NCBI RefSeq assembly: GCF_000969985.1
Contig: NZ_CP009526.1
Span: 3,286,001-3,350,000 of the forward strand
Direction of reading: 5' to 3'
Length of the DNA: 64,000 bases
Source: Methanosarcina barkeri str. Wiesmoor
GTDB taxonomy: Archaea > Halobacteriota > Methanosarcinia > Methanosarcinales > Methanosarcinaceae
The position numbers and the translations under genes were made by a program. Positions 25,655 to 27,438 of this stretch are shown here, piece after piece (position 1 is the stretch's first letter; each line of letters opens with the position of its first letter). The notes below the pieces were generated by a model, which did no database searches, had not been told where the DNA came from, and saw only the letters and a program-made list of their open reading frames with translations.

Positions 25655-25740
25655 TATGCATGATCACGGCCTTTTTTTCAAAAGGATTGACTGCAACCCT
25701 TTTGAAAAAAAGGCTTGACCGAAAACCCGAGAAATCTGGA
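25655..25740. repeat. Hairpin repeat, second locus of the 16.9-kb family
   Basis: Contains GGCCTTTTTTTCAAAAGG and CCCTTTTGAAAAAAAGG followed by CTTGACCGAAAACC, the same motif as in 16930-17180. It lies 150 bp beyond the decarboxylase stop. Remaining sequence up to the first RNA element (about 25750-26090) is AT-rich, with TGCCAATTTAATGTATTAAATATTATG repeated in part at 25945 and 25970. Confidence 0.75.
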
Positions 25741-26094
25741 AAACAGGAAACAAAGGAATAAAGCCACTTTTTCTGGACTTGGCTATTCTCTATGATTATG
25801 CTGTCTTTATTCAAGCAGGTTATGACTCTATGTCTATGTGACTATAAAAGTGGATGCAGTGAGGGTATAGAGTTCTTAATCCCGGGTTGGATTGCATGAA
25901 AGGGTTCAAGAAGTTTCAAAAATAAGATTTTTATGGTACTTACTGCCAATTTAATGTATTAAATATTATGTGCCAATTTAATGTATTAAATATTATGTTT
26001 TGATTAAATATTTTAAGGTCATTAAAAGTTTCACAGCTAAACAAATACAAGAGCTGTTTAAAAATTTAGGTTGTGAACTGTTTTTTTGGTCGAT

Positions 26095-26107
26095 TATGAT
26101 ATATATC
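26095..26107 (+). promoter_or_regulatory. TATA box of candidate sRNA copy 1
   Basis: ATGATATATATCC lies about 25-30 bp ahead of the first hairpin of the element, the normal archaeal distance to a transcription start. The same block precedes copy 2. Confidence 0.55.
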
Positions 26108-26129
26108 CCCACGCTACTATAAGAGTATA

Positions 26130-26215
26130 GATTAAGAGCAATAGGGTTTCCTCTTAATCTTTGGGTTGGATCGCAGGTAGGGATCCGAGAATAGGGACTC
26201 GGTAACCCTACCATC
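26130..26215 (+). ncRNA. Candidate structured sRNA, copy 1
   Basis: Two hairpins. SL1: GATTAAGAG (26130-26138) pairs with CTCTTAATC (26151-26159), loop containing AATAGGGTTTC. SL2: GGTAGGG (26176-26182) with CCCTACC (26206-26212), then CCGAG (26185-26189) with CTCGG (26198-26202), loop AATAGGGA. Both arms and both loops recur in two further copies with compensating changes. Minus-strand open frames across it (at most 73 codons) have no ribosome site and I treat them as chance. Confidence 0.65.
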
Positions 26216-26772
26216 TACTTCTAAACTAATTTCTTGTATAACTTACTGTTTTTCATAATGTCTTTATTTTTAATAAACCTTATGACCGTTCCTAAGTTTT
26301 TAGTTTTATTTGCAATGTAGGCGACAGCTCCATTAAATGTTGTGAAGATTAAATAATCGTCTCGTTTTCCTTCAGTTTTATCTCAACAGTATGATTATAA
26401 ATTTATTTATACTTTCGGGAAGGTTATGCGTAAGGTCATATATATTATACTCTATACGAGAAAAGCAGGTTTTATAGGACGAAGTGTAAATCCCAAAGTT
26501 ATTAGCCTCGGGTATTTCACTGAAACTTGTATTTTAGTACATGTAGTCTTTTTTTCAGAGCGTTTTAATCTTATTAAGTAATATGAAAAACTTCTTTAGT
26601 ATGTCTTAATAAGATGATATTTACACTTCTTTAGTACTTAATAAGATGAAATTTACAAAAGTTCAACTGAATCAATACTTGCAAAATTTTCAATGCCATT
26701 AAAAATTTTGTTTATATTAAAAATAAGTAGCCCAAGCAAAATTAGAATCACGAATTGTTTTTTGGGTCGGTT

Positions 26773-26787
26773 ATGATATATATATCC
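26773..26787 (+). promoter_or_regulatory. TATA box of candidate sRNA copy 2
   Basis: ATGATATATATATCC, positioned as in copy 1, with the flanking GTCGGTTATG / GTCGATTATG also conserved. Confidence 0.55.
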
Positions 26788-26805
26788 CAAGTCCTTATAA
26801 AATAA

Positions 26806-26892
26806 GTGTAGATTAAGAGTATAGGGTTTCCTCTTAATCTCTGGGTTGGATCGTAGGTAGGGCCGAGAATAGGGACTCGACCCCTACCATTT
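26806..26892 (+). ncRNA. Candidate structured sRNA, copy 2
   Basis: SL1: GATTAAGAG (26811-26819) with CTCTTAATC (26831-26839). SL2: GGTAGGG (26856-26862) with CCCTACC (26882-26888), and CCGAG (26863-26867) with CTCG (26876-26879). Two bases are deleted next to the lower stem and the opposite side has also shortened, so the stem is kept. The region 26216-26770 between copies 1 and 2 is AT-rich and shows no gene. Confidence 0.65.
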
Positions 26893-26905
26893 ACTTCTAT
26901 ATGAG

Positions 26906-26988
26906 GATTAAGAGTATAGGGTTTCCTCTTAATCTCTGGGTTAGATCGCAGGTAGGGATCCGAGAATAGGGACTCGATCTCTGCCAAC
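26906..26988 (+). ncRNA. Candidate structured sRNA, copy 3
   Basis: Follows copy 2 after 14 bp. SL1: GATTAAGAG (26906-26914) with CTCTTAATC (26926-26934). SL2: GGTAGGGATC-CGAG (26951-26964) pairs with CTCGATCTCTGCC (26973-26985) through an almost unbroken 13-bp stem with G-U pairs and one bulged C. It has no TATA box of its own, so it may be the 3' half of a longer copy 2-3 transcript. Confidence 0.6.
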
Positions 26989-27000
26989 TAATTCTAGATC

Positions 27001-27115
27001 AATAAACTGTTTTTCCAATAAACTGTTTTTCCAATAAACTGTTTTTCCAATAAACTGTTTTTCCAATAAACTGTTTTTCCAATAAACTGTTTTTCCAATA
27101 AACTGCTTTTAAGTT
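27001..27115. repeat. 16-bp tandem repeat, 7 units
   Basis: Unit AATAAACTGTTTTTCC repeated seven times, the last with GCTTTT in place of GTTTTT, directly after sRNA copy 3. On the + strand each unit supplies a U-run, so the array could act as a 3'-end/termination zone. 27116-27438 is AT-rich without a gene. Confidence 0.95.
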
Positions 27116-27438
27116 AGTATTACCTTTTAACAAATACTTTTAAAACCAATTTATAGAATACTCCCTTATTCTTACAATGTACTTAGCTTTAATAAAGTTT
27201 ATGATTGTTTTAAGATGATGCATATGCCTGAATATATGTATTTTGAGATCATTTTGACTTCTCGATTGCATTTTTTAAATGTGTATGTTTTCCCAGAGTA
27301 ATTAATTCTGCACAGGACAAACTGAAAAAAGTACTAAAAATTACTATAAAATATCAGTAGGTAGAGAAAATTTTCTCCACCTGCTTTTACACAATTCGAA
27401 TATCCTCGAAATTTGATTTTTTTCAAACTTCAAAGTCC

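Follow-up and report, generated by a model that had tools for sequence, protein, structure and literature searches.

A multi-copy family of probable two-hairpin RNA genes in Methanosarcina with a dedicated promoter and an 18-bp-phased upstream array

To our knowledge, a role has been assigned to only a few archaeal sRNAs, and those studied so far are almost all single genes. In bacteria, dispersed and near-identical sRNAs that answer to one regulator and act additively are exemplified by Qrr and by CsrB/RsmY/RsmZ. About 240 sRNAs have been catalogued in Methanosarcina mazei (PMC5867862), and members of the family described here may therefore already have been seen as single transcripts. The M. 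mazei RNAs sRNA162/sRNA171 are 191 nt long with three stem-loops and a variable linker of 39 nt between SL2 and SL3, and exist in two copies; the sRNA162 locus lies between MM2441, which encodes an ArsR-type regulator, and MM2442, and has been linked to the methanol/methylamine switch (PMC3510493). Another sRNA, sRNA154, has two stem-loops and is conserved in Methanosarcina (PMC5867862), carries the NrpR operator GGTA-N6-TACC in its promoter (PMC3177094) and contains a leaderless 20-aa ORF at nucleotides 4-66 (PMC11456600).

The family reported here, found in a 64,000-nucleotide stretch of Methanosarcina barkeri str. Wiesmoor DNA (the window), resembles sRNA162/171 in being a Methanosarcina sRNA with stem-loops, a single-stranded linker and a duplicated locus, although its own transcription is predicted. 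Unlike that pair, its members are about 100 nt long, occur in 4-11 copies and have two stem-loops, SL1 and SL2, whose connecting linker of 10 nt is nearly invariant. Identity with sRNA162/171 was rejected by comparison with published features: the conserved structure consists of two stem-loops that together occupy about the first 95 nt. As for the location of sRNA162, the window copies are flanked by decarboxylase and oxidoreductase genes, while a divergent subfamily adjoins a gene for a FilR1-type regulator, which may or may not be related to MM2441. With sRNA154 the family shares its two stem-loops, but sRNA154 is about 130 nt long and a single gene, whereas the family is about 100 nt and multi-copy. 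Identity with sRNA154 was likewise rejected, since the upstream region consists of an 18-bp array and the motif TCGRTTATGATATATA, and GGTA-N6-TACC was not seen by eye before the window copies. Moreover, 61 of 99 family copies lack an ATG and copy lengths vary out of frame, which argues against both a counterpart of the sRNA154 ORF and a small protein of any other kind.

The following features were identified in the window.

About 25814-25921, + strand: probable degenerate fourth copy (remnant); 10.5 bits with filters off
26000-26089, + strand: unit 1 array, made up of five AT-rich repeats of 18 bp, with the palindrome-like TTTTAAGGTCATTAAAA among them; defined by autocorrelation, operator position and identity
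26090-26106, + strand: unit 1 promoter motif TCGATTATGATATATAT, with the TATA box at about 26100-26105 and a predicted transcript start at about 26126-26131
26117-26122, + strand: unit 1 CTATAA, a putative -10-like promoter-proximal element
26126-26225, + strand: RNA copy 1 (117.7 bits, E 1.8e-23; fold -35.3 kcal/mol, z -3.3), with SL1 at 26129-26160, linker GGGTTGGATC at 26163-26172 and SL2 at 26176-26212
26248-26290, + strand: unit 1 T-rich 3′ element TTTTTCATAATGTCTTTATTTTTAATAAACCTTATGA, 94% identical to relatives; candidate terminator or binding site
26677-26766, + strand: unit 2 array of five 18-bp repeats, including TTTTCAATGCCATTAAAA; defined as for unit 1
26767-26783, + strand: unit 2 promoter motif TCGGTTATGATATATAT, with a predicted transcript start at about 26806-26811
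26795-26800, + strand: unit 2 TTATAA, promoter-proximal element
26807-26901, + strand: RNA copy 2 (104.7 bits, E 1.1e-20), with SL1 at 26810-26840, linker at 26843-26852 and SL2 at 26856-26888
26902-26998, + strand: RNA copy 3 (100.1 bits, E 1.1e-19), lacking a promoter motif of its own, with SL1 at 26905-26935, linker GGGTTAGATC at 26938-26947 and SL2 at 26951-26985
27000-27112, + strand: seven copies of the 16-bp unit CAATAAACTGTTTTTC, running from copy 3 toward the 3′ element; 52% identical to relatives
27163-27206, + strand: unit 2 3′ element in a diverged form, CTTATTCTTACAATGTACTTAGCTTTAATAAAGTTTATGATT

An earlier note, made from the letters of this stretch, had described three copies of a two-hairpin element, and all three are present on the + strand together with the ATGATATATAT blocks that it had placed upstream. 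The SL1 stem GATTAAGAG/CTCTTAATC is the same in copies 1, 2 and 3. As the note had also read correctly, SL2 pairs GGTAGGG with CCCTACC in copies 1 and 2, and forms a longer stem in copy 3 (GGTAGGGATC-CGAG with CTCGATCTCTGCC) that includes G-U pairs and a bulge. Its proposal of compensating changes does not hold among the window copies themselves, where differences are one-sided (G-C to G-U, or U-A to U-G) or concern length, but it does hold across relatives. Folding of the single copies yields z-scores of -3.3, -1.0 and -1.9 against shuffles, a modest gain that alone is no proof.

Bit scores of the window copies derive from a covariance model built from relatives, and the next matches of this model within the window are either noise or - strand shadows caused by palindromy. 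No other occurrence of the SL1 sequence exists in the window at up to three mismatches, nor does any arise in 100 window shuffles; an ungapped SL1 pattern misses copy 1 because of one extra base in its loop. At the position of the remnant upstream of copy 1, relatives carry a better-preserved copy (L009_1236 and L011_1227). At gathering score no Rfam 15 family matches anywhere in the window, and none matches the copies even at E values up to 10.

A covariance-model search of Methanosarcina, which the earlier note had suggested, finds the family in 29 of the 31 genomes of the genus. All four genomes of a second genus and both genomes of a third also carry it, giving a total of 35 of the 112 genomes of Methanosarcinaceae, and in the order's other genera (186 genomes) the same model has no match. 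Most genomes hold 4-11 copies, both dispersed and in tandem. In the window genome (4.9 Mb, two contigs) the three copies form one locus, and a distant further member (L062) is present on the - strand of contig C2 at 234052-234155. Named records containing the SL1 core come mostly from Methanosarcina and other Methanosarcinaceae; the few bacterial bins among them probably represent chance 17-mers or contamination. Divergent subfamilies retain SL1 and the linker and have new SL2 loops. Divergent loci such as L062, L148, L149, L156, L163 and L178 carry other SL2 stems, for example TTGGGAGCC/GGCTCCCAA, and divergent members are often paired about 510 nt apart between genes for a FilR1-type regulator and an FmdE-domain protein.

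The evidence for structure comes mainly from covariation. In an alignment of 100 copies fitted to the model, 96.1% of cells in stem pairs are paired, and 14 of the 21 pairs have changed on both sides. Double-changed cells number 188 versus 52 in shuffles (0 of 500), and sliding the partner by 1-3 columns lowers pairing to 38-55% of cells. Such a model-fitted alignment is biased toward the structure, whereas a structure-blind MAFFT alignment of 48 copies, which is free of this bias, still gives 96.3% standard pair cells and 54 double-changed cells versus 16 in shuffles. Covariation extends to all 12 pairs of SL2, and one pair in SL1 flips as a block between A-U (48 copies) and G-C (47 copies). 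A candidate outer helix around SL2, GGGUUGGAU/AUCUACUUC, pairs in 93.7% of cells, with many G-U pairs and no double changes. Also, G-U pairs (110) outnumber A-C mismatches (34), the form that G-U pairs take when read on the other strand, and the + strand is therefore the RNA strand.

Unpaired segments are even more constant than the stems in the main family: the SL1 loop AAUAGGGUUUC, the 10-nt linker GGGUUGGAUC and the SL2 loop AAUAGGGA are near-invariant. The conservation that had been claimed for the loops AATAGGG and TTTCCTC applies to the main family and fails in the divergent subfamilies, where the loops have changed and UUUCCUC reads UUUUUCUC. A kissing interaction between the SL1 loop (GUUUCC) and the SL2 loop (GGGAAC), which inspection of divergent copies had suggested, was considered and dropped, the real duplex energy being no better than that of permuted pairs (p 0.07; 0.62 for divergent members). 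Separately, the linker (at 26163-26172, for instance) is possibly like an rRNA stretch, although a 9-mer match could arise by chance; the resemblance is to GGUUGGAUC, the stretch of archaeal 16S rRNA that precedes the 3′-terminal anti-Shine-Dalgarno sequence.

Each full unit has the same order, in which an array of about 90-110 bp is followed by TCGRTTATGATATATA, a -10 element YTATAA, SL1, the linker and SL2, with a T-rich 3′ element added in some units. YTATAA or a near variant directly precedes most copies, and TCGRTTATGATATATA nearly always lies 36-39 nt upstream of the model start, which puts the TATA box some 25 nt upstream of the base of SL1. Within two mismatches the motif is found upstream of 70 of the 99 copies, versus 3 of 1980 shuffles. 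Its only exact sites in the window genome are the two at 26090 and 26767. Of the 23 sites with at most one mismatch across five further genomes, 19 directly precede a copy; the reversed control pattern occurs at three sites. The ATGATATATAT block that the earlier note had seen at a suitable distance before copies 1 and 2 lies at a promoter whose distance from the RNA is fixed. Tandem second copies, including copy 3 of the window, lack the motif; copy 3 is probably contained in the transcript of copy 2, and other tandem second copies probably share that of the first in the same way.

Upstream of the promoter, the sequence is AT-rich and periodic. Autocorrelation over the 110 nt preceding the motif in 91 copies peaks at lags of 18 (z 16.8) and 36 (z 19.2), whereas z does not exceed 3.4 in the next region upstream, used as a control. 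Divergent subfamilies analysed by themselves still show the 18-nt lag, at z 12.3. In 54 of the 91 copies the clearest operator unit, TTTYAATGNCATTAAAA, begins at position -79 relative to the promoter motif, and other good matches, following the 18-bp period, are found at -25, -43, -61, -97 and -116. Identity to four close relatives is 0.84 for the array, 0.94 for the promoter, 0.96 for the RNA and 0.94 for the 3′ element, versus 0.64-0.68 for the spacers. Taken together, the arrangement makes it very likely that the RNA is expressed from its own promoter under the control of a phased regulatory array.

The T-rich 3′ element follows many units, beginning 23 nt after the RNA in the simplest of them, and occurs in two genera; its near-exact matches genome-wide mainly adjoin RNA copies. 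It shows no conserved RNA structure: RNAalifold predicts no third hairpin, and a hairpin drawn by hand shows no covariation. In unit 2 the 16-bp repeats that precede the element are not conserved, since they are only 52% identical to relatives, and relatives carry other short T-rich repeats there, which suggests that the interval separating the RNA from its 3′ element can grow freely. Two further repeats lie on the opposite flank. One is an exact 27-bp tandem duplication, TGCCAATTTAATGTATTAAATATTATG, at 25944-25997, directly upstream of the unit 1 array. The other, at 25669-25714, is a near-perfect 21-bp inverted repeat with a 4-nt loop (GCCTTTTTTTCAAAAGGATTG/CAACCCTTTTGAAAAAAAGGC) located downstream of the decarboxylase gene, for which it is possibly the terminator.

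The copies are intergenic, and for 66 of 99 of them the first gene downstream is encoded on the opposite strand. The window locus is flanked by a PLP-dependent decarboxylase gene and a 2-oxoacid:ferredoxin oxidoreductase gene, an interval that is the commonest location of the family, and is not beside methyltransferase genes. In several species a divergent subfamily occupies the interval between a FilR1-type regulator gene and an FmdE-domain gene, and it adjoins the regulator gene in six genomes. Many copies occupy orthologous positions, where promoter, RNA and 3′ element are kept and spacers are not, and no neighbour is constant across loci. An intergenic, structured and conserved element could in principle be a leader, riboswitch or terminator acting in cis on a neighbouring gene. 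Such a role is highly improbable here, as most genes downstream are encoded on the opposite strand at distances of hundreds of bases, neighbours vary, and the RNA has its own promoter with no reading frame downstream: same-strand ORFs that begin within 250 nt number just two, one of them doubtful.

The multi-copy, dispersed occurrence of the family, with clusters c28 and c108 near transposase-like genes, might also suggest a mobile or passively amplified MITE-like DNA repeat whose hairpins are incidental. This idea has very little to recommend it when set against the fixed spacing of promoter, array and RNA amid diverging spacers, the covarying stems with their strand bias in G-U pairs and the orthologous positions of many copies; a repeat search of the window also found no terminal inverted repeats around the copies. 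Stems are maintained at homologous loci, the opposite of what the earlier note had named as evidence against its proposal. Its view that these are members of an RNA family rather than a DNA repeat accordingly agrees with the covariation across 100 copies, the G-U bias, the promoter at fixed distance and the conserved orthologous loci, which together make a family of noncoding structured RNA genes of about 100 nt very likely from sequence comparison.

Operator sequences are shared with genes elsewhere. A search of five genomes for a single operator unit with at most two mismatches is noisy, returning 39 matches versus 7 for the reversed pattern; about 22 of the 39 are at RNA copies, and single units are found upstream of FilR1-domain regulator genes in four genomes. 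A 30-mer spanning two units (at most three mismatches, eight genomes) has four places and no control matches. Three of these places are at RNA copies and the fourth, in the window genome (L257, contig C2, 2888919-2888948), is about 200 nt upstream of mtbC-mtbB, which encode a dimethylamine corrinoid protein and its methyltransferase. This is the strongest operator match in the window genome away from the RNA genes. Sharing of the operator with methyl-substrate genes is therefore observed, the link to mtbCB consisting of one strong site. Operator-like sites also occur near an acyl-CoA ligase gene in two species (L231 in G075 and L252 in G000), where no RNA copy was found, and perhaps mark a further regulon member or a decayed copy.

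Because the operator sequence is shared and the neighbourhoods of some copies include the regulator gene, we propose a network comprising a FilR1/Msr-type regulator and methyl-substrate genes. The favoured reading, which we regard as moderately probable, is that these are sRNA genes with their own regulated promoters, controlled by a FilR1/Msr-type protein through the array and acting in trans in the response to methylated substrates. In such a mechanism, the regulator, most likely of FilR1/Msr type, would occupy the 18-bp-phased array as a row of dimers, and RNA polymerase would initiate at the base of SL1, some 25 nt downstream of the TATA box. The transcript would fold into SL1 and SL2 joined by the single-stranded linker, and through its near-invariant unpaired segments it would contact a shared partner (mRNAs or a protein) in the methylated-substrate response, with redundant copies raising the dose. 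Confidence differs among the components. Action in trans is likely, membership in a methyl-substrate regulon is a plausible suggestion that falls short of probable, and the assignment of a FilR1/Msr-type protein as regulator of the array is more tentative, both of the latter resting on shared operator sequence and on neighbourhood. Somewhat doubtful is the complete scheme, wherein one such regulator, bound as dimers to the 18-bp-phased operators, co-controls the 4-11 sRNA copies and the dimethylamine methyltransferase genes, and the sRNAs serve as the post-transcriptional arm of substrate choice.

What the RNA might bind in trans is the subject of two further possibilities. CsrB/RsmZ-type RNAs in bacteria set the free level of an RNA-binding protein, and the GAG-AAUAGGG-CUC hairpin and GGG-rich linker of the present family could similarly form a protein sponge or scaffold whose copy number sets the free level of its ligand. 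The AAUAGGG loop is present in both hairpins, loops and linker stay constant across many redundant copies while stems diverge, and exposed segments compared with the leaders of mtbC and two FilR1-type regulator genes gave no pairing signal (z about 0 to 1, best -1.2), all of which is in keeping with a protein ligand. However, the SL2 loop is no longer AAUAGGG in divergent subfamilies, the partner protein is hypothetical and the search for mRNA complementarity covered these three leaders, so that we rate a sponge as rather unlikely.

The second possibility is that the family corresponds to sRNA41 of M. mazei with its relatives, or to a different sRNA from the M. mazei catalogue, and would repress translation by covering ribosome-binding sites. 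Like the family, sRNA41 is an intergenic Methanosarcina sRNA, and it is a candidate relative. It masks several ribosome-binding sites and represses ACDS mRNAs (PMC5867862), and the UUUCCUC exposed by SL1 could pair with sites of the GAGGAAA type. In divergent subfamilies this segment is lost, however, and a multi-copy sRNA41 is not described in the literature searched, which leaves such an identity improbable.

The literature searched contained no account of the family or of its promoter and array, and published features set it apart from sRNA162 and sRNA154. The covariance model allows the RNA to be annotated in 35 genomes of the Methanosarcinaceae. With a dedicated promoter, a phased array and invariant loops, the regulator could be fished out by means of the array and the target by means of the loops, and the 18-base array hints at a regulator that is common to the units and linked to growth on methylamines. 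Should the mtbCB connection prove correct, RNA regulation would be tied to substrate choice in metabolically versatile methanogens. The family is archaeal, unlike the Qrr and Csr sets, to which it has no known sequence relation, and we know of no 18-bp-phased array promoter described for Qrr or for CsrB/RsmY/RsmZ. What it has in common with them is its organization, namely several dispersed, near-identical sRNAs that are proposed to be under the control of one regulator.
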